Part shown: positions 20,990-64,000 of the stretch, piece after piece
How positions within the stretch are numbered: the first letter of the stretch is position 1
How the letters are laid out: the number at the start of each line of letters is the position of its first letter
Origin: Hygrophila difformis
Taxonomy: Eukaryota; Streptophyta; Magnoliopsida; Lamiales; Acanthaceae
Direction of reading: 5' to 3'
Assembly (NCBI GenBank): GCA_030278955.1
Contig: JAOANR010000012.1
Coordinates: forward strand, 30,627,491 to 30,691,490
DNA: 64,000 nucleotides
The notes under the pieces: model-generated
The model's database searches: none
Told to the model about the DNA's origin: nothing
What the model saw: the letters and a program-made list of their open reading frames with translations, nothing else
Translations under genes and position numbers: made by a program

Positions 20990-21113
20990 TTCTACTTCAA
21001 AGTTTAATTAATAGCTCACAAATGGTAGCTCAACTGAGATGTGTTTATGATGTGGAAGATCAGATTAACTGCAACCACGGAGCATACTACGCAACCAAGG
21101 CTCTGATACATAT

Positions 21114-21578: not shown

Positions 21579-21583
21579 GTTTT

Positions 21584-22066: not shown

Positions 22067-22096
22067 TCTTTTTTCCACTTGACAATACATCCTTAT

Positions 22097-22386
22097 TGTT
22101 GTGAATATTATGACTTTGGCCTATTATGTGTATATAAGTATATATGTATAACTTCTCTGCAACCTGCAAATGTGCCACGACAAAGAAAATAAAAGTGCAA
22201 GGACATAGAAAAATAGAAGAAGAAGAAAGATGATAGTAGACAGAGAAAGTTTTTCAATGTAGGAAATGAATTATTGAATCTGACCATTTTCATATGAATA
22301 CACGTCTTATAAAAGCCTTCAGCCTTGACACATTAAATGTGGTAGGTAATGATGAGACATCGACTTAATTTGTTAGCTATATAATA
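22097..22386 (-). repeat. 3' LTR of copia element 2
   Basis: Matches 27237-27502 closely. It carries an extra segment of about 23 bp near 22170-22193 that the other LTR lacks. Confidence 0.92.
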
Positions 22387-22439
22387 CCCCCTCTTGGATG
22401 TCTTTATACAAAAAATATGCCTCATTAAAACCTTACTAG

Positions 22440-36325: not shown

Positions 36326-37728
36326 CAATCACATGTCCATACGCAAACCAACGCATCAGGACATAATAAACAACTCGTCTCGAGTTAAGTATAATCCGGG
36401 GTATGCCAAGTCCCACATATCGGCATCAACATATATTCAGATTCAATTCCACACATGTCAATACGTAATTTACGTGTCATGACAAAATAAACAACTCATC
36501 ACGAGTTAAGTGTAATCACGGGTGTGCCAAGTCCCACATATCGGCACCAACTCTCACATCAGCATAGAAGCGAATCAAGACTCGATCTTAACTAAGGCAT
36601 AGTAGATCACCGCTAATCGCAACTAGGTTCAAAGATTGTGAGCATAATGATAGTTATGGCATGCTAGAAGCATAAGAAGAACTAAGGAAACACGAAGGAC
36701 GAAGAATCGGAAAACGAGCGAACGAATCGCGCGGACAGGATGCACGGCGCGCACCCCGCGCGGTTTTCTTGAGAAAACCGCGCCAACAGCGCGCCGTTCC
36801 AGGTTCGACGTGGTTCGTGTTTCTCGCGCGCTGCCCGCGCGCGTTTTGGCTAAAGGGCGCGCCAAGTGCGCGCCGACACACCAGAAACGATGGAAATGGC
36901 GGTTTCCGGCCATTCCACCGATTATGCCCCCATTTAGGCCTATCTCTACCCTTGCCTGGTATTGAGGTGGTCCAAACTCTTCCAATACAGCTCCCCAACT
37001 CCTCCAAACACCAATACCAAGCTACATAACAAGAAAATCAACCAAATCATCAAAATTTCATTCAAGAACATGATTTCATCATCATGAAACCATTTGAAGC
37101 TCTAAAACTGAAATCATCAACACCAAAATGGTCTCAAGTACTAACCTTAGCTTCCTTTAACACTTATTCAGCTTCCAAACAAGAATCCAAGCTTCGATTC
37201 AACACCAAAAGCAAGAATTTCTACAAACACCCAATTTTCGTCACCAACTTTCATCACCCCAAAACTCACTCAAACATCATCAAAATCAAGTGTAGAACTA
37301 GGAAAATACTTACCAAAGCTTATATAAGTAATCCCCCAACTTGATTTGAGGAAGAAAACACCAATTCCAAGCCAAAATGAAGAACCCTATCTTCACCGAG
37401 AGGGAGTGACGGGAATGGTAAGATGAGGATGAAGAAATGGGTTTCCCAATGCCCAAATCAGATTTTTGAAGGATCAAAAATGGATCCGGGTCGGGTCGTG
37501 GGTCTCGGGTCGGGTCGGAATGTGGGTTAAAAGGGTTACACCACTTGTCTTGACCACATTGCACCCATTTGAGCACTTGACTCTTATTATCTAGTGAGTT
37601 GAATTCACTTATTCCTCCACTTAAATCTTCATTCCCTACAAAATAATCCATATACCAAGTCTTTTGTTAATTAACCATAACTAAATTAAATTAATTATGA
37701 GTTAATTAAATCGGGGTGTTACAATTTC

Positions 37729-38100
37729 ATTCAACTGAGAAGTGTATACAAGTTTAATACAATGCCTAGCAAGTTCTATATTTTGTGTAAGATAAGTTTT
37801 TTATTTGAATTGAACAAATGAAAATATACTCAGTTTCCACATTATTGAAATCATATTGAAATCACATTATTGAAATCATATTGAAATCATTTTCCAAAAA
37901 AGTAAATTATTTCTATTCTTGATTAATCAATGGATATTAATAAATTATCCCTTAAATAATCGATAATTAATGTAATTTAGTTGTCCTCAATCTTTAGTCA
38001 CTAATCCAAAATGGTAAATTAATTATATTCTCAATTAATCCCTCCAATGATTGTTTCACATTAAATGTAAATCTCTTATGTTTAATTTCTCTCCCAAAAA
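37729..38100. other. AT-rich spacer between the solo LTR and the repeat array
   Basis: It begins with the remainder of the 73-bp unit split by the LTR. Modules of the following array (AAATTATTTCTATTCTTGATTA; CCTCAATCTTTAGTCACTAA) already occur here, so the array may start before 38101. Confidence 0.4.
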
Positions 38101-41100
38101 TCTCTTCTATATATAACATTTAAATATCATTAGAATAATTTATTAATTTATTAAAATAAACCATTCAATATTAATATGATTTATTAATTAATTTATACAT
38201 ATCTATTACAATTATATAAGGATCTTCCTACAATTATATATAAGGATCATCCTATATTTTTATTGATTCAAGTGATTACTTTAATTAATGTGAATGAATC
38301 ATCGGATAAGATTACTTTTGAATTGAGAATAAAATCGGGAATAAAAATCAATGGACTTTTGAATTGATCAATGAAGAAAATTTTGGAAACACAATATTAA
38401 ATTATAAAATGGAAACTAAATTTTAGAATATGTATTTTGTTTAAATAAACCATTCTATATTAGTATGATTTATTAATTAGTTTATACATATCTATTAGAA
38501 TTATATAAGGATCTTCCTACCATTATATAAGGATCTTCCTATAATTTTTAGTCAATAATCCCTAAAAGATATGAAAAATTATAATATTAAGTAACGCATC
38601 AATGATTAATTAACATTAAATGAAATTATGAATAATTCGTTCAATAATTATCCGCATAAATATTAATTATATTATATTCACAATTAATGTAATGATCAAT
38701 GGATAAGATTACTTTACTTTAATTAATGTGGATGAATCATCGGATAAGATTACTTTCGAATTGGGAAGAAAATCGGGAATAAAAATCAATGGACTTTTGA
38801 ATTGATCAATGAAGAAAATTTTGGAAACACAATATTAAATTATTGTGTTAAATTATTAAAATCGGGAAGAAAAATCAATGGATTTTTGAATTGATCAATG
38901 AAGAAAATTTTGGAAACACAATATTAAATTTTAAAATGGATTTTTGAATTGATAAATGAAGAAAATTTTGGAAACACAATATTGAATTATAAAATGGAAA
39001 CTAAATTTTAGAACATGTATTTTGTTTAAATACATAAGTTTTAGTTAATAATTCCAAAAAGGTAAATTATTTCTATTCTCGATTATTATCTGAATGAATC
39101 CCTAATTTTTAGTCAATATTCCGAAAAAGGTATATAATATAATAAAAAGTAATCACATCAATGATTGATTAATATTAAATAAAATTATGAATAATTTCTT
39201 CAATAATTATTCGCATTAACATTAATTATATTATATTGACAATTAATATAATGATCAGTGGATATTAAATAATTATTGTTGAAAAAAATCGGGAAGAAAA
39301 TTAGGGATTACAGAAATTATTCAATGAAGAAATATAATTAATGTTAACAAGTGATTACTGTAATTAATGTGGAAGAATTATTATCGGATAAGATTACTTT
39401 ATATTTAGTTTCCCAACTTATGGAAACTAAATATCAATGAAGAAAATTTTGGAACAAAATAGAATTAATATTGTGTTAAATTATTAAAATCGGGAAGAAA
39501 AATCAATGGATTAAATTTTAGAATATGTATTTCTTTACCATCTGTCAAATATCCTACACACCAATAATCTTATCCTATAATTGATTATATTCCATAATTG
39601 ATTAACATTAAATGAGATGAATATAATCCGGAAAAGGTAATATAATTCTAATCTGAATGATTAATGCAATTAATCCCTAATTTTTAAACAATAATTCCGA
39701 AAAGGTAAATTATTTCTATTCTCGATTAATCAATGGATATATAAATAAATTATCCAATAAATAATCGATAATTAATGTAATTTAGCTATTCTCTTTAGTC
39801 ACTAATCCCAAAATGGTAAATTAATTATATTCTCAATTAATCCCTATAATGATTAATTGTCATTAAATGAAAATCTATCATGTATAATTTTCCTCCCAAA
39901 AATCCCTTCTATATATAATATTTTAATATCATTAGTATCACTTATTAATTTATACATATTTAATAAAATTCGATAACGATCTTATTATAATTTATTTGTC
40001 AAATAATTTTATTTGTATTGGCAACTAAATCTTTCTATATAAATTTATCCGTATTTTGGAAACACAATATTAATTATAAAATAGAAACTAAATATTAGAA
40101 TATGCATTTTTTTAAATAAACTATTCTACATTAGAGATTTATTAATTAATTTATACATATCTATTACAATTATATAAGGATCTTCCTACAATTATATAAG
40201 GTTCTTCCTATATTTTTATTTATTCAAGTGATTCCTTTAATTAATGTGGAGGAATTATCAGATAAGATTACTTTTGAAATGGGAAGAAAATCGGGAAAAA
40301 AATCAATGAATTTTTGAATTGATCAATGCAGAAAATTTTGGAAACATAATAATAAATTATAAAATGGAAATTAAATTTTAGAATATGTATTTCTTTTATA
40401 AAATATACCATTCTATATTAGTATGATTTATTATTAATTAATTTATACATATCTATTACACTTATATAAGGATATTCCTACAATAATATAAGGTTCTTCC
40501 TATATTTTTATTCATTCAAGTGATTACTTTAATTAATGTGGAGGAATTATCGGATAAGATTACTTTTGAAATAGGAAAAAAATCGGGAAGAAAAATCAAT
40601 GGATTTTTGAATTGATCAATGGAAATTTTTTTGGAAAGACAATATTAAATTATAAAATGGAAACTAAACTTTAGAACATGTATTTTGTTTAAATCCATAA
40701 TTTTTAGTAAATAATTCCAAATAGGTAGATTATTTCTATTACACTCACAGCACCGTCTACCTAAGATAAAAAACATCAAATCCGAATAAAATTCGCTTTC
40801 TGCGGGTCTTTGGCTCAAATTTTATTCGGATTTGATGTTTTTTATCTTAGGTAGAAGGTGCTGTGAGTGTAATTTGCTGTTGTGAACTCATATTTGGTTG
40901 ATGAATGAGAAATTCCTTTTCCTCAAAAAAAAACTTCTATTCTCGATTATTATCTCAATGAATCCCTAATTTGTAGTCAATAATCCAAAAAAGGAATAAA
41001 AATATAATATAAAGTAATCACATCAATGATTGATTAAGATTAAATAAAATTATGAATAATTCCTTCAATAATTATACGTATTAATATTAATTATATTATA

Positions 41101-42406
41101 TTCACAGTTAGTTTAATGATCAATGGATATTAAATAATTTTTATTGAATAAAATCGGGAAGAAAATTAGGGATTACATGAATTATTCAATGAAGAAATAT
41201 AATTAATGTTAACAAGTGATTACTTTAATTAATGTGGAGGAATTATTATCGGATAAGATTACTTTATATTTAGTTCATTGAATATTTAGTTTCCCCACGT
41301 ATGGAAACTAAATATTAATGAAGAAAATTTTGGAAGAAAATGGAAACACAATATTAAATTATTGTGTTAAATTATTAAAATCGAGAAGAAAAATCAATGG
41401 ATTTTTGAATTGATCAATGAAGAAAGTTTTGGAAACACAATATTAAACTAGAAAATGGAAACTAAATTTTAGAATATGTATTTTGTTTAAATACATAATT
41501 TTTAGTAAATAATTCCAAATAGGTAGATTATTTTTATTCTCGATTATTATCTCAATGAATCCCTAATTTTTAGTCAATAAGCCAAAAAAGGTATAAAAAT
41601 ATAATATAAAATAATCACATCAATGATTGATTAAAATTAAATAAAATTATCCAATAATTCCTTCAATAATTATTCGCATTAACATTAATTATATTATATT
41701 CACAACTAAATGTAATGATCAATGGATATTAATATTAATTATATTATATTCGCATTAACATTAATGTTAACAAGTGATTACTTTAATTAATGTGGAGGAA
41801 TTATTATCGGATAAGATTACTTTATATATTGTTCATTGAATATTTAGTTTCCCAACTTATGGAAACTAAATATCAATGAAGAAAATTTTGGAAGAAAATG
41901 GAAACACAATATTGAATTATTGTGCTAAATTATTAAAACCGGGAAGAAAATCAATGAAATTTTGAATTGATCAATGGCGATAATTTTGGAAACACAATAT
42001 TAATTAAATTATAAAATGAAAACTAAATTTTAGAATATGTATTTTTTAAAAATAAACAATTCTATATTAGTATGATTTATTAATTAATTTATACATATCT
42101 AATAGAATTATATAAGGATATTCCTACCATTATATAAGGATCTTCCTATAATTTTAATCAATAATTCCAAAAAGATATAAAAAATTATAATATAAAGTAA
42201 CCCCATCAATGATTGATTAACATTAAGTATCTTCCTATTCATATCTATTACAATTATATAAAGATCTTTCTATAATATTTTTATCAAAATATTTTTATTT
42301 CTATATCTGAGACGTTTTATTCTTTTGTTGAATCTTTAAATAATTAAAATTCCTTAATATTTTAGAAACATTTCTTCCCGCGCATTGCGCGGGCGGGTAA
42401 TTCTAG
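38101..42406 (+). mobile_element. Probable Helitron made of degenerate AT-rich repeats
   Basis: The 3' end is clear: a hairpin CCCGCGCATTGCGCGGG at 42377-42393, nine bases, then CTAG at 42403-42406 followed by T. The proposed 5' end is TCTCTTCTATATATAACATT at 38101, preceded by A. A related sequence, TCCCTTCTATATATAAT, recurs at about 39903, so the true start could be there or elsewhere. The body is non-coding. It repeats a set of modules at irregular spacing: TTAATTAATGTGGAGGAATT about seven times, ATATAAGGATCTTCCTA about five, TTTTGGAAACACAATATTAA about seven, and CACAATTAATGTAATGATCA about four. It is a non-autonomous element. Confidence 0.6.
40738..40933. mobile_element. Foldback retroposon-like insertion with poly-A end
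   Basis: Two 56-bp arms, 40738-40793 and 40818-40873, are inverted complements with a single mismatch and are separated by 24 bp. After the second arm comes about 50 bp and then A9-C at 40925-40933. The copy of this array module at 41510-41560 lacks the insertion, and the words TTCTATT on both sides of it (before 40741 and after 40933) look like a short target duplication. Poly-A plus duplication suggests target-primed reverse transcription. The long hairpin would also resemble a miRNA precursor if transcribed. Confidence 0.65.
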
Positions 42407-42481: not shown

Positions 42482-43054
42482 TCTCTTCTCTCTATTATAT
42501 AAGAGAAGAAGTTCCAAATCCTGCCAAATTGAATTTCAATCTCCACCGTTGGATTAGAAAGCCAATTGGAATTGTGACCGTCAGATTAAAAATCCCATTT
42601 GCACATTATAGGGTCGGGTTTTCCCCGATTTTTCAATCTCTTCAATCTCTTCTGGAATGTTCGCTCATACCCCCATCGTTCTCCTTCCGCCCTAAATTTC
42701 CCACGCCCGATTTCACTCCGGCTCGCGATTCCATCCCAGGTTGAACCCGCGTAGAAAGTGTTCCTCTGCCCCGCGTCGCCGGTGGTTGGTTGTTGCGTTG
42801 CAGCCATCACTGTTTGGAAGATAGCGCCGCCGACACCGCACACGGTTCCCGCCATCGCCGCCGCTGAGGGCAACCGCCTTTGCCCGGCGCGGACCCTCCC
42901 ATCGTTGTCGCCGCCATCTCTGCGCGAGCCGCCATCGCCCGACGCCGCTGAGGGCATACCTTTGTTTTCCTAGCGATAGTTTAGGAAAAAAAAATTCAAA
43001 ACCCTAATTCTTCTTTTCGCTCCTCAAGACTCGCTGCTCAATTTCTCGCCTATC
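42482..43054 (+). other. 5' part of the capture element and SNU13 promoter region
   Basis: It holds the presumed Helitron start followed by a GC-rich stretch (about 42700-42970). Homologous words (GCCTTTGCCCNGCGCGGANCC; CCATCNTTGTCGCCGCC) recur at about 45064-45120, so part of this block is duplicated inside the element. The leader just before the SNU13 start, with AAAACCCTAATTCTTC, looks like a plant 5' untranslated region. A frame at 42385-42744 has no known domain. Confidence 0.4.
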
Positions 43055-43928
43055 ATGGTAATGCTTGTATTTCCGAATGCTGGTTTCGATTTTTACGTAT
43101 ACTATTCATCAATTTAATCATCTGCGGATATTAATAATGAACAGAGTGTGGAAACTGTGAACCCGAAAGCGATACCATTGGCGGATGCCCAGCTCACCAT
43201 CATTATCCTCTACTTGGTTCAACAGGCTGCCAATTACAAGCAACTCAAAAAGGGTGCTAATGAAGGTTGGGTAAATTTCTGATCTTCGTAAAAAAAAAAA
43301 TGATGGTTTGTCACTGGAACGAATTTCGTGGGCCTAAAAATAATGGCATCTTTTTTTTTATATTGCACAGCAACTAAGACACTGAACAGAGGGATTTGTG
43401 AGTTGGTTGTGATGGCCGGCGACACAGAGCCTATTGAAATCCTTCTCCACCTCCCACTTCTTGCTGAAGATAAGGTTTTTCCTTCTCCTGCCAAATATTC
43501 CTTGTACTCTGTTTTGAAGATTTGACTCATCAGTCACTGATCATACATTGAGGGAATGAAACAAAATCGTGTGATGGTTAATATGAGTGTTCTTGTTGGC
43601 ATGTTCCAATTTGAGTTATGATGATAGTTTTGTGTCTGCAGAATGTATGCTATGTGTTTGTTCCATGAAAGCAAGCACTTGGTAGAGCATGTGGAGTAAC
43701 TAGACCTGTCATTGCTTGTTCTGTGACAAGCAATGAAGGAAGTCAGTTGAAATCTCAAATACAACAAGTGAAGGTACTGCTGCTATTGGGATGCTTACTT
43801 AGTTTCTTGTGATAAGCTACATTTGCATGATGTTAATGGTAGTAATACTTTATGTATTTGTTTCATATAGTATTTCTTTCCTTTCTTGTCTGGTGTTGCA
43901 GAATGCTATAGAGAAGCTCCTGATCTGA
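43055..43928 (+). pseudogene. SNU13/NHP2L1 (15.5K) gene copy with one nonsense codon
   Basis: SNU13 is an L7Ae-family protein that binds kink-turns in U4 snRNA and box C/D snoRNAs. The copy keeps the whole exon structure: exon 1 is the ATG alone (43055-43057), then 43145-43265, 43371-43474, 43642-43773 and 43902-43928, all with GT-AG introns. The product of about 128 codons reads [40 protein letters not shown] and [20 protein letters not shown], ending NAIEKLLI, close to the plant protein. One break is visible: TGA at 43666-43668 where the conserved serine of VPSKQ is expected, a C-to-G change of TCA. Conserved retention of introns rules out a processed copy. A genomic fragment was taken up, probably by the Helitron. 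Confidence 0.85.
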
Positions 43929-44319
43929 TTGTTTAAAAGCTTCATCCAACATAATGGACCTCTTTATCAGTGAACCCCGAGGTTTTTTGATTGAGTCAAC
44001 ATCCTTTTACAGGTCTTTTTTTTCTTTTTTTTTGGGGGGGGGGGGGGAGGGGGGGGGGTTAACACACATGCCTTTTTCAGTTGATCTGTTTGAGAAATCT
44101 CTTTGCCAGTTAAAATTCTGCATATTTGAAATAGTTGAATCAGTATGAAAGTTGTACGATAGTGAGCAGGACTGGATTCTGAATTGCTGATGTATAACAA
44201 AGCTCCTACAAGATTGATTCAGTCAGTGGCGATTTTAGAGGGCTCTAGGTGGCGAATTTTTTTAGAAGAGCTCCAGGTGGTCATTTGACCCCCTCATTTA
44301 ATAAAAGAAAAAAATTTAA

Positions 44320-44626
44320 AAAATTATTCCCTCCATCTCATTTAATATGTCATGTTATCGTGGGTGGAAATTAAGTTGAAGTTCATTTATGAGTATATGA
44401 TGGAGTCCACATAATTGTTAAACAAAAAAATAACTTTTATTCATACATTTATGATAGGATATCCAAAAATAATAAGTAGATTATTATACAAAGAGAGTAT
44501 TTTTAGTTTAAAGTACTATATAATTAAAAAAATACTATCTCCGTTTCATAGTTTTTGTTACGGGTCATTTTTTGGCACTATAAACTGTTTAGCTTTAATT
44601 CAAACTTTTATCATGAACATGAGAGG
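44320..44626. mobile_element. Truncated MITE remnants
   Basis: TATTCCCTCCATCTCATTTA near 44320 and TACTATCTCCGTTTCATAGT at 44533 are left ends of Stowaway-like MITEs. Neither has a recognisable right end. The second is cut by the CACTA insertion at 44630. Confidence 0.5.
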
Positions 44627-44629
44627 TAT

Positions 44630-44772
44630 CACTAAAAAAAAAAATATCACGGAAGGTGACAATTCGCCTTCTTCGTCGTTTCGCACACGAGGTGAGGAAC
44701 AATGCGACGAAATTTGTCAGGTGATGATATTAGTCTCCTTTTTTGTCGCATTCCCACGAATTTCTTGTAGTG
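44630..44772. mobile_element. Miniature CACTA element
   Basis: It starts CACTAAAAAAAAAAATATC and ends GAATTTCTTGTAGTG, the inverse of the usual CACTACAAGAAATTC end. A 3-bp duplication TAT flanks it (44627-44629 and 44773-44775), as expected for CACTA (En/Spm) elements. The left end has decayed in the ACAAGAAA part. At 143 bp it is non-coding. Confidence 0.7.
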
Positions 44773-44993
44773 TATGAAATTCTCTTTGATTTTATCTTGC
44801 ACTCCCACGTATAAGTGAACTGTTTTTCCGAGAGATTAGTGAGTAATCTGTGTACATGTAGTGCTTAAAACTATTTTCAAGTAGGAAATGATAATAAAAG
44901 GTGGGCGAAATTTTGTTTCTTCAACAATGTGCTACTTTTAGTATAAATACTAGCTCTGATGTTCTGAGAAATTTTGTTTCTTCAACAATTGAG

Positions 44994-45195
44994 GGCGTCT
45001 CTCTCTCCCGACGAGCTCCAACCACCATGACGGAACTCCGGCCTCCGCAAGCCCTAGCCACCGCCTTTGCCCTGCGCGGAGCCTCCCATCATTGTCGCCG
45101 CCCTCCCTGCGCAAGCCGCCAACGTCCGGGGGCCTCTCTCCCTCTGGCCGACCCATCCCGCCGGCGTCTCTCTCCCGACGAGCTCCAACCACCAT
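44994..45195 (+). repeat. Direct repeat flanking a GC-rich segment
   Basis: The word GGCGTCTCTCTC(TC)CCGACG followed by AGCTCCAACCACCAT occurs at 44994-45028 and 45163-45195. The GC-rich sequence between them resembles 42830-42955. A second pair, AAATTTTGTTTCTTCAACAA, lies at about 44908 and 44971. Confidence 0.7.
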
Positions 45196-45490
45196 CACGG
45201 AATGGTCAGCCTTACAAACCAATCGTGTATTCCCAAACCGACAGGTAGCTTTCCTACTCTCTGGCCCTTAATTCCTTGTCTTCGTACCATGATTACTGTC
45301 GATTTTTCCAATTATATGGATGATTGTATAGAATTCTGATTTTGTGGAAGTCTGACGAACATTTGTATCATCCTTGTGAACACATGGATGTTTTAGGTTT
45401 TAAATTTCTGTTGGAACAATGGAAAGCATACCAATCGAACTTAGATAAACATTCTAATAAGCCAACAGCTGTGTTCAATATTTTTAGGAC

Positions 45491-45898
45491 CTATGATCCA
45501 TAGAAAGCAAAATGGAACAGTCAGGGACAACGAAAAGGGTTTCTTCCTGCAATCCTTCTATTGGGCATCCATCTGTAGAGGTGGAGGAACTGTTGCCATC
45601 AGAGTTGGAGAAGAATGTAGACCCTAGCAGTCGAAAGAGGGGTAGGAGAGGAGGTATACTGGAGATGGTTGCAGCTACAAAGCTCGAGGCCGAGGTTATA
45701 ACAAAAGTAAACAGCAAATTTCCTATAACCGATTGTGTCCAAGCCTTAGACGAGTTGCAAGGTATTGACAACCAAGTTTTTCTTACTGCATTAGATTTGT
45801 TTAACAACCGTAATGCGAGGGAGATGTTCTTAACTGTAAAAGCTGAGATACAACTTGAATGGCTTCGAAAGAAATGTTTGTGTTGTGGTCTTCAGTAA
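45491..45898 (+). pseudogene. MYB/SANT-like protein, C-terminal fragment
   Basis: The frame begins after a TTTTTAG acceptor at 45488 and stops at 45896-45898. It contains SSRKRGRRGGILEMVAATKL and then the block ELQGIDNQVFLTALDLFNNR followed by REMFLTVKAEIQLEWLRKK. This is the C-terminal module of plant L10-interacting MYB-like proteins, which are related to the DNA-binding partner protein of PIF/Harbinger transposons. The N-terminal trihelix/SANT domain is absent. The first ATG is at 45512. It is presumably a single captured exon; whether from a host gene or a Harbinger element is open. Confidence 0.6.
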
Positions 45899-46338
45899 AT
45901 TGATTGCATTTAGAAGCTGGTTTTTTTGCAGTGTATAATGTCTATATCAAATCAACCAACACTGACGAAGCCATGAGGCCATGTTGAAGAACATTTGTGG
46001 AGACTCTATGTATTTACTTTTCCGTAAGCGAATCGGCAAAGGATGGGCACTTGGTGGGAGCCATATACATTTTTTTTTACAAATCATTATAAAAAATTAA
46101 TCATGATACTATCATTGGATTGCCTATTTCAAATCTGTCCTGATTTATAATGATACATATCAGTCCTACCTCCCGCAATACATATTGGATGATTTATAAA
46201 TTTGCAAATTAATCATTATAAACATGTATGAGTGGATATGAAATACCAATCCTACCTGGTAATTATTTGTAAATGGGTTCTATGATATGCAAGCAGTGGT
46301 TTTTTTTTTTTTTATAACTGCATTTATGCTGTGCTAAG

Positions 46339-46777
46339 GACTTTGAATTTAAAGAGTGGAAAGAGGTTCAAAAACACTATCTTCATGGCTACCATGGTGT
46401 TGATAAGTCTGGAAGACTGGTATACCTAGAAAGGTTGGGGATGATAGCTTGCTATTGCGAATTACAACATTGGAGCGTTTGTGAAATACCAAGTTCAGGA
46501 GTTTGAGAAAACTCTTGCTACAAGGTTTCCTGCATGTTCTGTTGCTGCTAATAGGCACATAGACACGAGCACAACGATTTTGGACGTTCAAGGACTGGTA
46601 CTTTTTTCGTCCTAATTTTATGATGGGAGTATTTATGCGTAACTATCATGTACATTGTTCATTTGAGCTCTCTCTTTCAATCCAGGGTTTAATGAGTTTG
46701 ACTGGTCTGGTTATAGATTTCATTAAGATGGTTTAGAAGATTGACAATGACAACTATCCTGAAGTATGTCGCCTGAA

Positions 46778-46826
<49 letters not shown>

Positions 46827-47339
46827 CCCCCCCCTGTGTGTTAACTTTCTGACCCTTATGCCGAAACACATGTAACATTCTAGATATTTCAGTCTGCCCA
46901 TCTTGTTGAAGCAGATCTTATTGTTATTTGTGTTAGAGACACTTCATCGTATTTTCATTATTAATGCTGGTTCTGGCTTTAGGCTGATCTGGAATATAGC
47001 CAAGCCTTTACTTCACACTGATTCATCCGCAAAAATTCAGGTATGTCCGAGGCGCTCTTTCCCCTACATAACAATATTTGCTTTCCCAACTTGTAATAAC
47101 GATTTCAAATAAGTGCTTGGCAGTAAATACCTAGAGAAACTCCTTGAAGCAATTGACGAAAGGTGACTGCTTATTTCAACATTTGCATGCATACTAATTA
47201 AATACTTTTGAAAGCTCATGACATCTGTTTTGCTGGTAGGGAGCTATCGGAGTTCCTTGGTGGTAGCTGTACCTGCACAAATCAGGGGGGCTGTATGAAG
47301 TCAGATAAAGGTCCTTGGAAAGACGTGAATATATTAAAG
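46339..47339 (+). pseudogene. SEC14-like phosphatidylinositol transfer protein, five exons
   Basis: SEC14-like proteins exchange phosphatidylinositol and phosphatidylcholine at membranes. Exons, with GT-AG introns: 46339-46597, 46686-46763, 46939-47040, 47114-47162, 47240-47339. They encode the CRAL-TRIO domain: [73 protein letters not shown] and [20 protein letters not shown]. The latter Cys-rich motif marks the plant SFH subgroup. Damage includes a TAG stop at 46734-46736 (V*K, normally an Arg/Gln-type codon before KID) and a frameshift near 46440-46480. The N terminus and the C-terminal nodulin domain are missing, so only the middle of the gene was captured. Confidence 0.85.
46781..46823 (+). 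repeat. (TC)n microsatellite
   Basis: Twenty-one TC units lie in the intron after exon 2 of the SEC14-like fragment. Confidence 0.95.
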
Positions 47340-47502
47340 GTAATACAATTGTTACATCTACGTGCTTAAACGCTGCGTAACCAATTAAGTGCATAAAACT
47401 ATAGAAGGTGAAGAATCATATTATTTTTTGCTCTTATTGCATGCTTTGGCTGTGAAGCCAGATGGAACATTTGATTTGGTGTAGTTTGAAGAGAGTGTTT
47501 GA

Positions 47503-47646
<144 letters not shown>

Positions 47647-47928
47647 TAGCATCCTCAACTTCAATGGCACATTCTTTGTCTGAAAATAGTTTACTTGACC
47701 ATGGGTATTGATTGGCATTGACATTAATTATAGCTCAGAATGTGGCTTACTGGCATTTCCTGTATTATTATGTTTTTGATTGGTCATACGTAGAATATTG
47801 ATGCTGCACTTGATCTAAGTCACACCTAGAATATTGGAAGAATGATTAAATCTCACTATCCACATTCCCAAGTAGGTTTTCTGTTTCCCTTTCCACCTAG
47901 AATATTGGTGTCTTTGGTTTCTTTGCAG

Positions 47929-49670
47929 GGATTTTTTATGCAAAAGGATTCTAAAATGTTTCCTCCCTCAGTAGATTGGAATAATATTGATTGGTCTACT
48001 ATGCGGCATCAAATGGATTTTCCTGTTCAGGTGTTGCCACTTGCCTGTAAAGGTTTTTTTCAGCTACTATAATTTTATTAGGCATTGATTGATCCATACT
48101 ATAGTAACTAAATTATAGGGTTGATTTTCTGATTTTTTTTTAAGTCACGCTATAATCCTAAGTAGATCATAATTGAGCTACTGGAGTCACGATACTGGAG
48201 TGCTAAGTAGATCATAATTGAGCTAAATACCATATGTTGAAGTTTGGTTTGTTTAACATTCAAATACTATTTAGCTTGCAGAGTTTATGATTCGAATATA
48301 AGTCATCATATGAATTCGGCTTGATTATTTTCCAGATGACTCTATGTTTAATTCAACTTTGATTTGTTTATCATACTCGAAGTGAGGTTGAATTCGAACT
48401 TGAATTCATTAAGAAATAATTATTAGAAATTAAGTTAAAAAAATCATATAAAGAATAATATTGATCAATTTTTCAATAAAAACATATTTAAAATAATATT
48501 TAAATGTATTTTTAATATAAATATATTTTTTAAATATATTGAAGTGAATGCGAACAAGTTCCAAGTACTCGTAAACCAGTACAAACTCGGCTTGATTTGT
48601 AATCAAGTTGAACAGTTCGGTCCATTAAACTCTAGCACCATATTCTAGGAATCAACCTTCAACCAAAAGCTCATGTTTTCTCATTTTTCTTCATGTGTTA
48701 CTTAAAGCCTATGATCATGTACAGCTCCCACCCCCCCCCCCCCCCCCGTTCCTTCATATGTTGCTTAGAGCGCATGGCTTTCGAGTAAATGTTGGCATTT
48801 GTGCTGTTTGCAGTGTGTTGTTTGCAGTGCGCGATATGCTGTTTAGATGACAAAACAGTGGCAACGCCGGGCAAGGTAAGTATAATCTTCTTGTATCTTC
48901 TGTTGTGATACTACATACTTGGTCACTTCATCTGAGAGTTCCATACCAGTATAAAGTACAAACCATTATTCTGCTTTGATTCTTTTGGCCGATTCTTCAC
49001 ATGCCTATGTGCCTATTATACCTTTTCATACTTATATGAACTATTGGTGAATGGATAGCATATTCTAATCTTCCAAGGGTATTCAGTTTATTCCTTGAGG
49101 TACAGTGACTGTCTTCTGCCGACCATATCTGATTGTTAGGTAAATGTTACTACCAAATAATTGATTCTTTGTAATTGAAGATGTCATTGATTATGACCAG
49201 GTAAACATCAAGGATTATGCTTTATCCGGGGGTGGGCGAGGCATAGAGAGAGTAGAAGTATCTATTAATGGTGGCAAAACCTGGATCGAAGCTACCAACT
49301 ACCAGAAATCTGGCACCCATACATTTCAGATTCAGAAAATAGTGACAAATGGGCGTGGTGATATTTGAGGCTCAGGCTGATATCCATCAGACCACTGAAA
49401 TAGTTGCAAAAGCATTTTGTTCCAATTTTTTTGTTTGGAAATGGACTCAATTGCTACCTATTGGTTTAAGAGTCTAACAATGACCCAAAATTTGCATGGA
49501 TTACCGTGACTCTTTTTTTTGTCTTAGTTCTGATTTGGTGTTTCTGCAACTGATTCCAGATTGATACAGCCGCAAATGTCCAGCCTGAAAATGTAGATGT
49601 CACCTGGAACTTGAGGGGAATCTTATCATGGCATCGTGTTCAAGTCCGAATTGGTCACTCAAATCTGTAG
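47929..49670 (+). pseudogene. Sulfite oxidase, C-terminal exons
   Basis: Plant sulfite oxidase is a peroxisomal molybdenum enzyme that oxidises sulfite to sulfate. Exons: 47929-48030 (GFFMQKDSKMFPPSVDWNNI...DFPVQ), 48838-48875 (AICCLDDKTVATPGK), 49201 to about 49410 (YALSGGGRGIERVEVSINGG, then HQTTEIVAKA) and 49560-49670 (ANVQPENVDVTWNLRGILS...). The final residues SNL form a type 1 peroxisomal targeting signal. The middle exon has lost one base near 49368 (after the WAW codons), so the frame breaks. The molybdopterin-binding N-terminal half is absent. This is the dimerisation (Mo-co_dimer) region only. Confidence 0.88.
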
Positions 49671-51221
49671 GTGAAGGAGTTGCATCAAAGCTTCTGGCAT
49701 CCTGCCTGATTAATAATTAATATAAAATCGCACTCCACACTTGACAAGGCCATGCTGGTCCATAAGCTGCAATTAGCTGCAGTTCCTATAATCTCCATTT
49801 GCGTCTTAGCTGTCTTTGATCATCACTTGAAAGCAAGAACAGGGTTTTGAGTTTGCATGGATTATGATCTATGATGTGCCTTCATCTTTTTTCTGTTTGT
49901 TTAATGACATTTGTGCTCTCTTGATGGAATTGTTCTTTCTCCACCTGCCAAAATTGAGGAAAGATTGTTGATTTTTTAAGAATACAAGGAACCTATGTAT
50001 CAGCCTACTTTTTGGGAACCTGGCAATTCTTTCATTTCAGATCAAAAGAATGGGAGAGCTACTAAGCGCACCAAGTGTAAGTGATCTAAATCTAAGTTTT
50101 TTTTTTTTTTAATCTTATGCTTTTCGAATCAGGTTTATTTGTGGTTGTGTATTTTGAGACGATTTGTTGCTTAGTTCCTTAAGTGTTTTGAAAAAGAAGT
50201 TAAAACAAGAACAGGAGCAAATACTTTACCTTTAGTATTATTATTCATGATGCCTTGAATATGGTCGATAAAATGCTTAGTCATAAACTGTGTTATGCTA
50301 TGAGACCTGTTTTGATGATTGTTTTTGTGATCATAAATGATTGTGTTTAGCGATAGAATGATTAGTGTATAGCGATAGAATGTTTAGTGTAATTATTTCT
50401 GAGGAGTGTTTGTTTTGTGTCTATAACAGAGATTCTGAGGAGTGTTTAGTGTCTACTCCTGATGTGTTTACGCATTCTATCGCTATACACCAATCATATG
50501 TCCGTATTTATTGAAAATATGTCTCCATTTTGTAATAATGATTGTGGTTTTTTTTTTGTGTCATGCTCTTATGAACTATTTACTGCAACCTCCCATTATA
50601 TCCTTATTAAGTATCTTTTTATCCAATTTCAGTTTTTGTACTGTAGGAGACGGTTTGACCTTCTCCATCAAGCCCTTCACTGTGAAAATACATCTGGACC
50701 TTTTCATGAATCAATACAGCCCGTTCTGAAAACCTCGGAAACTGTGCTGGCGTTCACTCACTCGTATGTTGACTGTATTTCTTTTGTTCACTGCCATCAA
50801 GAGCGCAACTATTCTAAATAATTGTATCATTGCCAGTATTGTACTTGTATTGTCTTCTTACTCGAGGACTTGTTGAATGATTGAAGTAGTGTTTCGGGTT
50901 CATAAACTTGCTGAATGATTTGCCATAATGTTATTTTTACTTGTTTACTCTTTCATCTACTCCACTTTCACACCTTCCCTGCACCAGTCATGTCCTGTTC
51001 AATAAATCCGTGGCCATTAACCAAATTTTTGTGCCAATCCAAGGCTTGGTGTGCCGGACTCAAATGACAGACCTTAAACCCTGCTGCTCGGGTTTATTCA
51101 CCATTTTATATCCTCTAAGCGTATTTGCCTTTAAACAAAATAAGTATCATATAAACTATCCACATACGCTTACCTATAATTATTTCTTTTTCCCCCACGG
51201 GCGGTTGTACCCCTCAGTTCG
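49671..51221 (+). other. 3' part of the capture element
   Basis: It begins with sequence that looks like the 3' untranslated region of sulfite oxidase. An exon-like piece (DQKNGRATKRTK) follows a TTTCAG acceptor near 50040. A frame at 50462-50821 contains FDLLHQALHCENTSGPFHES, which I do not recognise and which could be a sixth captured fragment. Arms at 50359-50382 and 50473-50496 form a 24-bp inverted repeat with one mismatch. Confidence 0.4.
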
Positions 51222-51249
51222 CTGTGCATTTGCACAGTTTTTCAACTAG
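51222..51249 (+). other. Helitron 3' terminus
   Basis: Hairpin CTGTGCA-TT-TGCACAG followed eight bases later by CTAG and then T at 51250. This is the replication-termination structure expected at a Helitron 3' end. Confidence 0.7.
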
Positions 51250-52163: not shown

Positions 52164-54473
52164 CGGGAAATTGCTAAAAAATCCCCCGTAGTAAGCCCTA
52201 CTCCTTTGCTTCCCCCCGATTCAAAATGCAAGAAAACCCCACAAAGTTTGAAATTATAATTAAAAATAAGAAAAAAGGGGGAAACAAATCAATTTTTTAA
52301 TTGAAGGGACTATGGGTTCAATTTTTTTAATTGAAACCGTACACGATATCCCCTCTTCTCTCACATCCCGCGACTGAGTTGGACTCTTCGAAGATTGAAC
52401 GGAGAAACGGCCGTGGTGAGGGCAACGTTGAGGCGGCGAGCGAAGTCTATAAGGCGCGTTTTGGTGGCGGGAGTGCAGTCCCCACGGTGGCCGGGGAACT
52501 GGTAAACGGAAGGAGAGGTCGACGGTTCCGGAAAGTAAGAGGGCGGCGTAGAAGCAGCGGAAAGGGGTTGGCTGAGGGCGTAGCCGGAGGTGGAGGGTGG
52601 CGAGGGGAAAATCAATGGTGTAGTACTGATAGTGGTAAGTAATTTCGGTTGAATTTTGTTGTTTTGTGGGTGGGGGGAAAACGGGATAGCTTTGGAACCC
52701 TAACCGACGGTGTTTGTTCTTTAGTTGGAAATTTACTTAATATTGTTGTGTTTACTGTTATTATTCTTTCGACGGAATGTTGATGCTTGTTACTCCCGGT
52801 AAACGAAGTCTTAAATGAGTCATAGTCACTTCCGTGTATTTCTCGTAGGGCTATCTCCCTCCCATTCCATGCCTTTCGATATTTAATCACAATACCAAAC
52901 TCCCTCTCTAAGTTCATCGCATTAATCGGCCCGTACTTTGGATCACGACGTAATTTCTCCTTTACGTAACCTGTTATCCATGTTGCATCAGCCTTCGAAT
53001 TGTCACGATCCTTTAAACTATCCAACCCACATGAATGCTTCAACACACATCTTTTAATCCCAAAAGACCTATCAACCTTATGAAAGGATGCGTACACCCG
53101 CCACCCACATCCTACAACCATGCACACCGCTGTTATTTTGTCATCGTCATTTCTCTCATACTTAAATGCACGTTTGTGCGCTATACAGTAGTTCTTTAGC
53201 ACCATTCAGAAATGGTTTGCATCATCAAAAGTTTGGCCTTCCCCCCTAATCGCACGACCTCAAATTACCACTCCAACGGGTGCATTTCTATTCAGTGTAC
53301 CTTTCTCCCTGTTCCTTTCTCCAATTGCTTCCCTGTAAACCAATTTTCATTAACAAATTCACATAAGTACAGGTGCAAATACCATATATTCTCCTTTTAT
53401 TATACAATCAATAACTCCCAAACTCATTAACAGAAATACTGGACAATCATTCAATCACAACAAACTAAGACCTACATACATAAACTTCACCACAACACTG
53501 CTCGCTACAATATTCCCACCACTATATCAACCCAACATACCTACATAGAACTTATACAAAACACACCAACCAACACAGTCACCATACAGTATACCTACTG
53601 GATTTCACAACAATTTACCACACATTAAACATATTTCCAATGAAAACCACAGTATATTCATAATCAATATCTTCAACAAACTCTACGATATGGACATCCC
53701 GATCTCTACATACAAAAAAACCCTAACCCGTAACCAATACAAGCACGCACACCAACATATTGTTTCAATCAAATCTGCATTTCAACATATGTCATTACCT
53801 TATTCTCTTATTCACATCTTCAGCCCTTTTAGCAGATATTTTGCACAATCCTTTCCTCATGAACCGATGCACCTCTACCATGTGAGCAACGTCATTGTCC
53901 GACCATAGCCCCACGGGAAACCTCTCCACAGGGTGCTCGTAGTGCAATACCAAACGGGAGACATCTAACCCTCGTTTCGATGCTACGCTGCCCGCAATTT
54001 CGCTAAGCTGTGTCCCATTCCCCACAATCAAAGACTCCATCACCCCGTCCAACTCACAAAATGCAAGAAGGGGCTGCTCACCACCGCCATTTTTCTCCAC
54101 AATTTCAACCATCTCCCCAATATTTCCCCTGCTTCGAATCGTCCCAAAATCCCCTTCCCAAAACTCTGTCGCAGCCCCTTCTTCTCGTTGGAAAAACGCG
54201 CGAATTGATTTGGTGCTTCCACTTTGCTATGCTTTCCTTCCAAAGCAAGACAAGCCCATATAAAAAAACCAAATACACCCTTACTGCAAAGCACTTTACA
54301 GGGGTAAAAGGGTATTTTACCATTATGGTTTCCCATTTTTTTTTTATTTCCAAACATTGGGTACTGAATCGTAACTTCTTGATACATACATGGGGTTTGA
54401 GTTGGCATAATATTCCTGCATGTACTGTCCAGGAACCTGTGCTTTGTGAAGGGGTTTTTTCGGGTAAAACCCC
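52164..54473 (-). mobile_element. Mutator-like element with decayed transposase
   Basis: The 9-bp word TTTATTTTA occurs directly outside both ends (52155-52163 and 54474-54482). The left end CGGGAAATTGCTAAAAAATC and the right end inverted, GGGGTTTTACCCGAAAAAAC, align loosely as terminal inverted repeats. Minus-strand MuDR-type transposase sequence lies inside. The AT-rich duplication could arise by chance, but the combination supports a Mutator-like element. Confidence 0.65.
52612..54112 (-). pseudogene. MuDR-type transposase, N-terminal part only
   Basis: A first minus-strand segment (54112-53795) encodes a sequence with LVLHYEHPVERFPVGLWSDN followed by DVAHMVEVHRFM, as in the N-terminal PB1-like module of plant MULE proteins. 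The second (53205 to about 52790) has the MuDR DNA-binding domain: LKNYCIAHKRAFKYERND, AVCMVVGCGWRVYASF, IKRCVLKHSCG and ATWITGYVKEKLRRDP. The DDE catalytic core and the SWIM zinc finger are missing. The element ends soon after, in GC-rich sequence at 52370-52620 of unknown origin. It is not capable of transposition. Confidence 0.75.
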
Positions 54474-54956: not shown

Positions 54957-56205
54957 AAGGACGGGATGGTCGCTGATTATGGAAAATGGATAGGGTTGGA
55001 GTGGGATTGGGATATTAGTCTAAGAAGACCACTTTTTGATTGGGAAAAGGAGGTGTGGCAACAGTTCTTGCTGGTTATTGGCAGGATTAGTCTGAGTCGG
55101 TTTATGAAGGACAGGGTAGTTTGGATGCAGGACGGCAATGGTAGGTTCTCAATTAGATCGTGCTGGAGTAGGATAGCAGGGGGCAGAGGATGAGGTGAAT
55201 GCGATGTGGAGATTACTGTGGAAGATTAGAACACCAATGAAGGCAAAACTATTGGTATGGAAGGTGCTAAATCATGCACTACCTGTCAAGGAGGTGCTAT
55301 TGAAGAGAGGTTGTATCCAACATACTGAAATTATTTGTAAATGCTGTGGGAAGGAGGAAGAATCTATTAACCATCTTTTTTGTAACTGTGATCTTGCAAG
55401 TTTTTTGTGGAATATGGGAGCGGACTGGTTTGGGGTGGCATGGTCGAATCCTGGAAATATTAATAGTCTGATTATTTGGTGGTTGTGTGGAAACCAGTTG
55501 AAAGCTCATAGGGAGGTCTGGTTTATCACAGGGATTGCAATATGTTGGACAATTTGGAAGCTCCGCAACGACGCTATTTTTAGGGGTAAACAAATCGTGA
55601 CAATAGCAGTGTTGGAAGAACTTCAATGGAGGATCAGACTATAGGGGCAAGCCTTTCTGCTGACATGAGTCAACTGCTCGTTTGGTGTAGGGGGCAACTT
55701 CATGGACAACTTTGCTTCACCTCGGACGGACAGGGTGATAACCACCCAAAAGGGGTTTAACTTGGGTTCGGCCAACCAAAGGGTGGTGAAAGATCAACAC
55801 TGACGGTTCTTCCATTGGGAATCCGGGGCCGTTCGGGATTGGAGGAGTTATTAGAGAGGAAGGAGGTGAGACCATTTTCACATTGTCTGATCATATCGGT
55901 ATTACGGATTCAACAGAGGCTGAGATAACAGCAATTTGTCGAGTTTGCCAAGCTCTCATCCGTGACCAAGGTTTTCCCTTGCCCAAGCTTATTTTCGAAT
56001 GTGATTCCATTAATGTCGTAAGATGGCTCGACAATCCAGCGAGTGTTCCCTGGAGATCTCGTGAGAAAGTTGGTCCGATCATTTCAATGTTAAGATGCGC
56101 TGGGGAAGTGAGGTTTCAACATATCCTAATGGAGCGTAATTCCTTAGCCGATCATTGGGCGAAGCGCGGGGCATCCGATGCGGGTAAGATTGAAATGTGG
56201 AAATG
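54957..56205 (+). pseudogene. 3' end of a LINE: zinc-binding RT domain and RNase H
   Basis: The first piece, 54966-55193, has the spacer region typical of plant LINEs (EWDWDISLRRPLFDWEKE). The zf-RVT domain at 55195-55644 has LLWKIRTPMKAKLLVWKVLN, CKCCGKEEESINHLFCNCDL and WFITGIAICWTIWKLRNDAI. After a break, an RNase H domain (about 55795-56205) has NTDGSSIGNPGP in one frame and DSTEAEITAICRVCQALIRD, with the Glu of the catalytic set, in another. It ends in ADHWAKRGA. The element is 5'-truncated at about 54957, as is usual for LINEs. At least two frameshifts are present. Confidence 0.82.
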
Positions 56206-56570
56206 ATCAGTTTTGAGTAGATATTAATTTCTGGTGTTGGAACTCCGGATTGTGCCTTTATTTAGATATAAATGGCTTGCTCGAGAGGACCTTCTTCTAA
56301 CCCGATGGACTGGTTCTGGGCCATTTTTCTCCGTTCGAGCATGGTAATTGGGCCATTTGTGCGACTTGGGCCTATATATGTATTGGGCTTTATTAATACA
56401 TTTTTTAGGTGTTAACAGATTGCCCCGCCCCCGTTTATCAGCAAACATGGCCCGGGTTCAAGGCTCTTTTTCTGAAAAAGTGGTTTCTCACCGTTAACCT
56501 CTTTAGTCGGTTATCGATTTTCCAACTCCTTCTCTTGAACGTGCCCTGTGTAACGGGCGTCAGAGTGACT
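56206..56570 (+). other. LINE tail or promoter of the next gene
   Basis: Non-coding sequence between the LINE stop and the TATA box at 56572. No poly-A tail or target duplication was found to fix the LINE end. Confidence 0.3.
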
Positions 56571-60979: not shown

Positions 60980-61198
60980 TTTCAATCACCTATTGACTAT
61001 TGTTGTCCTCCTATGATAATATTCTTAATTTCTTAGTATTTAAATTATTTCCAAAAATTGAAATAAAGCTCCTATAAATTTTTCACAGTACATAAAATAA
61101 AATAAAACCTAAAATATTTACTTACATGATTTTCGAAAATGATTTTTTTTATTTATTTTGTAATTGCTTTTTCAAACGCGTTTTCCTTTTCATTGAGA

Positions 61199-62673
61199 AT
61201 GTCTGCTCCTAGGGTTCCCGCCCATGCACGAACGGCCGTCGTTCCTTCACCCTCCACCGCTCCTCCTCATGATCCCGGCGGCAAGTCCCCAACTTTCGCC
61301 CATGTTCTCACCCAAGATCATATGGAGACCGATTTGCCCGCCTCACAGCCGCCTGTCCGGAGAGATCTTATTGCTGAGGGACTCGTTCGTATGAGTTTTG
61401 TGGACGACAATCCGTCGCTGCCTGATTTTGTGATAGACGAAGAACTTGATAAGGAGGCTGGATTGGCTTGGTCAGACGCTCTGGTGGTTAAGATCCTTGG
61501 AACCACAGCGGGATATAATTTGTTACTTGAAAGGCTTAAACGAATGTGGAAACCACAAGGGAGTATGGATTTAATAGACGTGGGGTTCGGTTGTTACATT
61601 GTCAAGTTTGGAATTGCCGTAGATCGGGAAAAGGTGGTTAATGGCAGCCCCTGGATGATTTTCGATCATTACCTCGCGATTATGCCATGGTCTAGGGATT
61701 TCGATCCCAGTGTTACCAAAGTGAACAAGACATTAGTTTGGGCTCGACTGAACGGCCTCCCAATGCATAGATACAGAGAGGACATTCTATGGGCGATTGC
61801 CTCGGGGTTGGGAGAGGTTATTAAATTTGATGCCAGCACTCATGATTCATCCAAAGGGAGGTTTGCGCGAGTATGTATCGCACTTGATTTGGAGAAACCT
61901 GTTAAGGGCAAATTGAGAGTCAACGGTAAATGGATCCCTGTCGCCTATGAGGGATTGCATTTAATTTGTACCAACTGTGGCCGATACGGACACTTTGTGC
62001 GTGGTTGTCCTCATGCATGCAATGACACAACCCATACCGCCGATCATGCAAGGCGAAGGTGGTGGTTGCGGAGGCAGGCGGCGCTGGCTCTTCCGGAGTT
62101 GGGGGTGCGAAGGATGGTGTATCTCAAGATGGTGTGCCTCCTTCGGGCACCGCGGAGGGAGATCATAAGCCTAAAGCGGGAGATGGTAAAGGGGAAGATC
62201 CTGTCTTTGGGGATTGGATGATGGTTGTACGTCGTAAAAATAAGGCACGAAAGCCTAAGGGGGATGTGCTTGCTAAGGATCACGTCCGTAAAGATAAACA
62301 GGGAGTTGACCCCATTCCGAAGCATGCTGAACACCGTCCCCATGTTCAGGAGGCGGGGGAGACGGTTACCATGGATTCCCAGCGGAGTCATGATGATGTG
62401 CGCCCTCAGCGTTTTGGTAAGGATCACCTAAGTCTTCAAAAGGCTAAATCTAATCCTGGGAGCCTTGCGATTGTCCCGGTGGTTAAGATGGGGGATAGGC
62501 GTAAAAATCCTATTCAAATTCTTAAAAGGCAAAGGGTGGAGGATAGGGATGATACGTATTCCCAGTCTTCAGATGATTTCATTGGTGCCGGACGGTTTGC
62601 ATCTCTTCAGGATGATACTGAGTCGAAGGATGGTGACAATTGGGCCGACGCGGATGATGCTAGCATCCAGTAG
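61199..62673 (+). pseudogene. LINE ORF1 (DUF4283 and zinc knuckle), one frameshift
   Basis: ORF1 of plant L1-type LINEs is a nucleic-acid chaperone that packages element RNA. The ATG at 61199 is preferred over 61139 because the sequence before it is hydrophobic leader-like A/T-rich DNA. The DUF4283 region covers about residues 95-230 (NLLLERLKRMWKPQGSMDLI; SPWMIFDHYLAIMPWSRDFD). The CX2CX4HX4C knuckle is at 61967-62008. Between about 62010 and 62058 the frame shifts, and the basic tail (DPVFGDWMMVVRRKNKARKP; QRFGKDHLSLQKA) continues to the TAG ending at 62673. One indel is enough to explain it. Confidence 0.85.
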
Positions 62674-62710
62674 CATCCTCTTGTTGGCCGATCACTTTCT
62701 ATTTCTTGTT

Positions 62711-64000
62711 ATGGAGTTTCAAGACTTTACTATTATCGCTTGGAATGTCTTTGGTTTGATGAGTCGTACGGCTCAGATATGGATGAGTGATCTTCTCCGG
62801 GATCACAAGCCTGATATTTTATGTGTCATGGAACCAAGGGGAGCGTTTTCCAGGTTGCGTCCTTTTTTCCTTAGATGGGGCTATGCAGCTACCTATATTC
62901 AAGAGGCTGTGGGCATGGGTGGTGGTATATGGATTTTGCAGTCTCTTGCTATCTCTTGTACCATCAACGTTTTACATATTCATACGCGTATGATATCTGT
63001 GGAGCTTATCAAAGGCAATTACCGATGGGCTTTCACGGCTTTATATGCAGACCCTCATTACCCGTGTAGGAAGGATAATTGGGAGGTTCTTATCCGGTTG
63101 GCTGAGGCTATTGAGATCCCATGGGCGGTCATGGGAGATTGGAATGAAATCGTAGAGAGAATGAAGTTAGTGGTGGGGTTTTCTTAGCCGAGAGAGCGGC
63201 TGAACTGAGGACAGTTTTTGATAGTTGTCAGTTACTTGATCTGAACACTATTGGACCTGAATTCACTTGGTCGCGTATGGCAGGTGGTGGTAGACGTATT
63301 TCTAAGAGACTTGATCGTGCAATGGTTAATTTGTCATGGGAGGCTCGGTTTGAGGAAGGTCACCTTATGCATTTGCCTCGAGTTGGATCGGATCATTGTC
63401 CCTTGAAACTTATATGTGGCGGCCGAATGGATACTCATACGAATCGGCCATTCCATTGGGAAGCTATGTGGAAAGAGCATAGCCATTATAAAGAAGTGGT
63501 CACAGCCTGCTCAGGGGGGGGCCTCCGGAACTCTCATGCAGTCTCTTGAGCAGGTGCGTGATAAATCCATTGCATTTAACAAAAAAATTTTTGGCAACAT
63601 TCGGGATAGGAAACGCAAGCTTAAGAACCGTATTCTGGGCATTGAGAAGCGTTTATCCCGTGTCGACTCGGCATGGCTTTGGCGGTTATATGATGAAGTG
63701 AGGGGAGAATTAGCTAATCTGCTAGTTCAAGAAGAGTTAATGTGGTATCAGAAAGCCCGTGATCCTTGGGTCAAAGTTGGTGATCGGAATACTAAATACT
63801 TCCATGCCAAAACCAAAATCAAAAGGAAGCGTAATCGGATCTATAGTCTTGAAATCGAAGATGGCCAGTGGGTTGACAATCAAGATATGCTAAAGGCCCA
63901 TGCAATTAATTATTTTACTGAGCTGTTTGTCGCCCCTGATATCACCAGCGTGGGAGCTGATCTTCCTGCTTTACTTCCTTTGAGTGCACATCATCGGCAT
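62711..64000 (+). pseudogene. LINE ORF2, endonuclease part, cut by the window end
   Basis: ORF2 encodes an apurinic-type endonuclease, reverse transcriptase and RNase H. The ATG at 62711 begins MEFQDFTIIAWNVFGLMS, the endonuclease Asn motif. CVMEPRG, VMGDWNEIV and, after a frameshift near 63160, GSDHCPL supply the other active-site motifs. A second shift lies near 63500, next to a G8 run. The frame then continues through DRKRKLKNRILGIEKRL and NTKYFHAKTKIKRKRNRIYS to the window edge. The catalytic YADD of the reverse transcriptase lies beyond it. Few lesions suggest recent activity compared with the LINE at 13990-22066. Confidence 0.88.

Follow-up and report, generated by a model that had tools for sequence, protein, structure and literature searches.

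A non-autonomous Helitron of Hygrophila difformis carrying pieces of five host genes

The window analysed here is a stretch of 64,000 nucleotides of Hygrophila difformis, corresponding to C4:30627491-30691490 in a genome of 915 Mb and 246 contigs (contigs are given as C numbers throughout). On its plus strand, at 42482..51249, lies a non-autonomous Helitron of 8768 bp, or 8763 bp with the 5′ end at 42487, which begins with TC after an A, ends with CTAG before a T, and has a second full-length copy in the genome. Its cargo follows on the plus strand in the order SNU13, MYB/SANT-like, SEC14/SFH, ethanolamine-phosphate cytidylyltransferase (ECT) and sulfite oxidase, with introns present. The initial annotation, made from the letters of the window, had read the region as a probable Helitron with pieces of these five genes in one orientation. 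Both claims were borne out, since all five pieces are present in the order given, and the identity of the element is supported by the second copy and by a family-wide 3′ end.

The 5′ terminal part (42482..42991, +) begins with TCTCTTCTCTCTATTATATAAGAGAAG and contains a GC-rich stretch at approximately 42745-42965, recognized by eye. The 3′ terminal part of the family (50464..51249, +), common in whole or in part to loci on C8, C12, C6, C7 and C10, closes with the 3′ hairpin (51222..51249, +), CTGTGCA-TT-TGCACAG, with a 7-bp stem, an 8-base spacer and CTAG. By motif alone, such termini are not beyond chance: the window holds three 3′-like ends, of which one lies within the element on the opposite strand, versus a mean of 1.48 in 60 dinucleotide shuffles, and 5′-like patterns occurred with a mean of 0.73 in 60 dinucleotide shuffles of the window. 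Therefore, copies and family ends were used as proof instead. Counting the window itself, at least 43 genome matches are listed for the last 300 bases of the element and at least 40 for the first 300 bases. CTAG is followed by T at 25 of the 27 places where the 3′ end was read, including the window and L032, where it is shifted by one base; the two exceptions are L025, with ATAG followed by T, and L035, whose alignment stops short of the end. In this count each place was taken once, leaving out loci fetched twice and the second, weaker matches in L027 and L032. The terminus is thus common to other elements of the genome, so the refutation that the initial annotation had tied to unshared termini did not occur. 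At most of these places only 12 flanking bases were available, often AT-rich and alike, so the difference in flanks is shown for the window and its C1 copy and for two pairs of relatives, C8:37.91 with C8:31.21 Mb (99.3% over 6.0 kb) and C12:53.74 with C6:42.96 Mb (99.6% over 6.6 kb), in both of which the alignment breaks off at the element ends.

The element starts in a slippery pyrimidine run, which reads A followed by TCTCTCTATT in the C1 copy and A followed by TCTCTTCTCTCTATT in the window, and similar variation is present in several of the 20 family 5′ ends that were read. Two positions are candidates, 42482, preceded by A, and 42487, where homology to the C1 copy begins and the preceding base is T; TC is found in both. 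The base before the 5′ end is A in the window (42482), in the C1 copy and in C8b, and T in C8a. Of the proposed termini, the hairpin with CTAG was confirmed, while the start of the element, although present, may be set at either position. A small insert within the element (44630..44772, also in the C1 copy), with CACTA...TAGTG ends and TAT on both flanks, presumably belongs to the CACTA superfamily, judging from its terminal motif. It is the one point in favour of another gene-capturing transposon, a Pack-MULE or CACTA element, as the carrier of the cargo, an explanation we consider extremely improbable: instead of terminal inverted repeats the element has TC... at one end and hairpin-CTAG at the other, the printed flanks of the two copies hold no target-site duplication, and T follows CTAG at nearly all places counted above.

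The search for further copies advised initially revealed a full-length one at C1:895815-904933, which aligns from 42487 to the element end, with 500 bases on each side not alignable. The two copies differ by 158 substitutions over 8692 aligned bases (102 transitions and 56 transversions), a corrected divergence of 1.84%, and the C1 copy has, relative to the window, inserts of 35, 262 and 97 bases, the second with ends resembling those of a miniature inverted-repeat transposable element (MITE), as well as three gaps of 14-24 bases. The five pieces, the TGA in SNU13, the CACTA-like insert and the 22-base repeat described below are common to both, and are hence most likely older than the separation of the copies. 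With substitution rates assumed to lie between 4e-9 and 1.3e-8 per site and year, this separation would have taken place about 0.7-2.3 million years ago. The assembled element would then have transposed whole at least once, mobilised between A and T through rolling-circle transposition by a RepHel protein from another element. A join of the flanks, compared with the 64-kb window, gave only short AT-rich matches apart from the flanks themselves. Divergence between the copies is lower in 42992-44539 (13/1529 versus 145/7163 elsewhere; Fisher p 0.001), a difference that was first noticed and then tested, with gene conversion or a reduced mutation rate as possible causes. The second copy also bears on an assembly artefact joining unrelated pieces, for which no point in favour was found and which is hardly credible, as the same joins occur on another contig, 158 substitutions apart, and some of them recur at further loci.

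The SNU13 block (42992..44953, +) holds a start, a stop and five exons (43055-43057, 43145-43265, 43371-43474, 43642-43773 and 43902-43928) with GT-AG introns. It matches human SNU13 1e7k with an E-value (E) of 2.5e-56, and its best matches are spread over many plant orders and give no pointer to Lamiales, the gene being highly conserved. It had been called a near-complete gene, which is accurate as far as start, stop and exons are concerned, but an in-frame TGA at codon 85 interrupts it in both copies. A donor-like locus is located at C1:9240630-9241471 (93% including introns), the donor-like locus for the block as a whole being C1:9.2406-9.2429 Mb, with homology in segments 42992-44022, 44099-44247 and 44317-44539. 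The stretch 44773-44953 matches C1:9242748 in the right order and also matches other loci; its position and order suggest that the donor homology may continue to 44953. Another SNU13 gene, at C2:52.16 Mb, is stop-free in three matched stretches, its short last exon being unmatched. In a comparison with 119 homologues (119 of the 120 listed matches, leaving out the nematode P0001), ten residues that depart from the commonest one were found to be common to the element and the C1 donor, and five of them, at positions 11, 21, 58, 79 and 119, are in none of the homologues. With the paralogues on C11 and C144 outside this comparison, we infer that what the element captured was a duplicate that had already diverged, rather than the working gene. 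The block is followed by a junction stretch (44954..44993, +), in which the 22 bases of 44968-44989 are identical to 44907-44928, a repeat found in both copies of the element. A GC-rich stretch of 72 bases occurs twice, at 42870-42941 and 45057-45128 (87.5%), flanking the SNU13 block, and the second occurrence sits in a segment with many genome matches.

This segment consists of mobile pieces of unknown gene origin (44994..45479, +; 45036-45239 and 45237-45467), found at many loci with at least 43 matches listed, among them C11:37929266-37929750 (98%). The MYB/SANT-like C-terminal piece of the At2g29880 / L10-interacting MYB type (45466..46000, +) includes the stop codon and following bases; its frame shifts at about 45515-45545, and a small deletion is present. 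Within a longer conceptual query it matches a Paulownia protein (60%, E 5.1e-39), with 31 proteins matching in total; the best nine come from Paulownia, Phtheirospermum, Sesamum, Castilleja, Salvia, Andrographis, Striga, Orobanche and one unnamed source, and the eight named genera are ones we take to be Lamiales. Its Pfam match is below the cut-off, and the piece alone gave no match in the protein database at E 0.001, with full-length relatives outside the length limits. The SEC14/SFH phosphatidylinositol-transfer piece (46342..47339, +) comprises several exons with in-frame stops and matches 7y10 at E 5.4e-72. The ECT piece (47381..47756, +), whose borders were derived from C6:18034768-18035156 (93%), holds one exon, 47524-47643, matching 3elb at E 3.4e-15. 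The sulfite oxidase piece (47929..49959, +) comprises C-terminal exons, 47929-49667, up to the stop codon plus following bases; it matches the plant 1ogp at E 9.2e-69, and its frame is broken at about 49320-49360. For the protein queries of SEC14 and sulfite oxidase, frames were joined across the breaks. A sulfite oxidase exon with a 104-residue open frame and no stops is also present at C5:35513998-35514225, a cargo-sharing locus. The cargo is followed by a repeated piece (49959..50334, +), which is also found near sulfite oxidase pieces on C2, C5 and C9.

Related to the parental genes that the initial annotation proposed to locate, donor-like loci were found on C1, C8, C11 and C3, and less surely on C6 for ECT; none of the five is on C4. 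For SNU13, MYB, SEC14 and sulfite oxidase these are the only listed whole-query matches outside the two copies: C8:65276953 for MYB (87%), C11:57347961 for SEC14 (92%), and for sulfite oxidase the gene-like locus C3:50398481-50400476, of which 50398778-50400476 matches at 86%, the match continuing to position 49959 of the window at 90%. MYB also has a pair of matches on C10 at 94-95%, and SEC14 has others as well. In the case of ECT, no listed match apart from the two copies covers the whole query, and C6:18034768 was taken as donor-like because it extends past a breakpoint common to most of the others and has no adjoining SEC14 match. Stop-free matched stretches among the donor-like loci are limited to sulfite oxidase, in three protein matches. 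The pieces are of host-gene origin, with likely sources elsewhere in the genome. MYB and sulfite oxidase are more diverged from their donors (87% and 86%) than SNU13, SEC14 and ECT (92-93%), which would fit an earlier capture without proving it, as these identities were taken over exons and introns together and cannot be read directly as ages. The scatter of these loci over contigs, together with the C1 copy and its non-aligning flanks, makes ordinary chromosomal synteny of the five genes unworkable, as had been argued initially. The common orientation and the introns would be expected of such an arrangement, yet the pieces are cut short or carry stops and frameshifts, and the whole block is duplicated with common ends, which refutes synteny in this genome and leaves it next to no probability.

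In regard to the assembly of the cargo, several of its junctions are found at other loci. MYB and the start of SEC14 lie approximately 350 bases apart at two C10 loci, with the same spacing as in the element, while SEC14 and ECT are contiguous at five loci, on C7, C12, C151, C5 and C87. Likewise, the piece before MYB and the start of MYB are found together at four loci, and the sulfite oxidase pieces lie close to the following repeated piece on C2, C5 and C9. The recurrence of junction-spanning segments indicates that the cargo grew stepwise or by exchange between elements. In the first case the cargo would have been assembled in steps, in line with the MYB-SEC14 and SEC14-ECT segments at other loci. 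Alternatively, elements each carrying one or two gene pieces could have contributed most of it through exchange or nested insertion, a possibility to which we give not far short of an even chance. This is favoured by the five loci with contiguous SEC14 and ECT and the two with MYB beside SEC14, by the three loci where sulfite oxidase pieces are accompanied by the next segment, and by the unequal identity to the element at C7, where the ECT part reaches 98% versus 92% for the SEC14 part. On the other hand, the same loci may descend from earlier stages of a single lineage. The serial capture proposed in the initial annotation is supported, with the reservation that part of the build may be due to exchange. 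Altogether, we assign a probability of about 0.96 to the region being a non-autonomous Helitron of a large family, with cargo built stepwise and the whole element transposed at least once after assembly.

Among eight matches, the full-length SNU13 block is confined to the two copies and the donor-like locus, which suggests that SNU13 may have come last, on the 5′ side of the older cargo. Its addition would be a late event, within the element and close to the 5′ end. Templated filler at a junction is expected of repair-based capture, and repair-like copying would have left the 22-base copy at the SNU13 junction. We tentatively propose capture by internal copying rather than by 3′ read-through, in which a diverged SNU13 duplicate of approximately 2 kb, extending from just upstream of the coding start to the 3′ flank, came to lie upstream of the older cargo, close to the 5′ end, and was sealed by a 22-base filler for which its own end served as template, while chimeric segments spread and recombined among Helitrons as a combinatorial exon pool; we would give this proposal as a whole roughly one chance in three. 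Excision is dealt with in PMC4683698.

Several observations weigh against the interpretation of stepwise capture in a mobilised Helitron. The 5′ end may lie at either of two positions 5 bases apart, and at 42487 it would be preceded by T, not A. RepHel was not among ten chosen element pieces searched with Pfam, which cover part of the element only, and no genome search for a partner was made. The donor-like SNU13 locus is itself damaged, with 16 bases lost across the exon-3 acceptor, and the loci proposed for MYB, SEC14 and ECT are known from matches alone. For ECT, the C6 locus was chosen, less surely, over loci of higher identity, on C7 (98%), C87 and C5 (96% each), C151 and C12 (95% each), all of which also carry SEC14. 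Furthermore, the loci sharing cargo segments are no more than candidate Helitrons, and the late arrival of SNU13 rests on its absence from the rest of the matches listed, for which loss would be another possible cause.

Within the family, the set of five pieces is absent from 20 further 3′-end loci (L018-L037) and from the C8, C12, C6 and C7 relatives, over the stretches examined. Gene capture extends beyond the element of the window, as the C12 element has a TOPLESS-type fragment, with PF21889 matched in two pieces. In the C12/C6 relative (L015, 2760-5231), LisH_TPL is just below the cut-off, and a match to the transketolase C-terminus is also below it. As judged by eye, 6 of the 20 family 5′ ends (L042, L046, L050, L052, L053 and L057) start about 10 bases or less after another CTAG followed by T; family elements are often inserted tail to head. 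In the window, an AT-rich stretch of degenerate repeats at approximately 37720-42406 is closed by a second Helitron-like 3′ end (CCCGCGC-ATT-GCGCGGG...CTAG followed by T), which sits 75 bases upstream of the 5′ end of the element, and a MITE-like palindrome with long arms was recognized by eye within this stretch (40740-40871). Further mobile element remains, identified by Pfam and partly by reading open frames, are present at 19696-25880, 52612-53205, 55177-56206 and 61130-63549 and include Copia-type polyprotein, MuDR-type transposase and pieces resembling long interspersed nuclear elements.

Among known systems, this kind of element has precedents, and the present case is well documented. 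The portion of PMC3288121 at hand describes maize helA Helitrons carrying on average 3 gene fragments (range 0-12), interprets overlapping fragment sets among relatives as stepwise capture, and calls the route by which several genes enter one element a puzzle. Five named pieces are within this range, so the present element adds to that kind. It resembles helA, as described there, in the CTAG 3′ end and in several host-gene fragments per element, and differs in belonging to another plant lineage, in that a donor-like locus can be proposed for each of the five pieces, with less certainty in the case of ECT, and in that its most restricted piece is a diverged duplicate near the 5′ end. The bat Helitrons and Helraiser, according to the available text of PMC4778049, likewise have a 3′ hairpin terminator and carry flanking DNA along, but capture there proceeds by 3′ read-through, which would add sequence at the 3′ end, in contrast to SNU13, the block with the narrowest distribution here, which lies on the 5′ side of the other cargo, close to the 5′ end. 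Non-autonomous Helitrons of rice and maize, as far as the excerpt of PMC2575219 goes, have the same 5′ TCT, 3′ CTAGT, preference for an A in front of the 5′ end and 3′ flanks rich in A+T. According to that source, gene capture is frequent in maize and uncommon in rice and Arabidopsis, whereas in H. difformis gene pieces are found in the window element and its C1 copy and, as a TOPLESS-type fragment, in the C12/C6 pair. Literature searches gave no match pairing Helitron with the string TATATAAGAG and none combining Helitron, Lamiales and gene capture, and among the papers listed none joins Helitron to SNU13, sulfite oxidase or ECT. In the sources consulted in part, multi-gene Helitron capture in plants is best documented in maize; here, the presence of donor-like loci, junction-sharing loci and two full copies in one assembly makes the order and the mechanism of capture testable.

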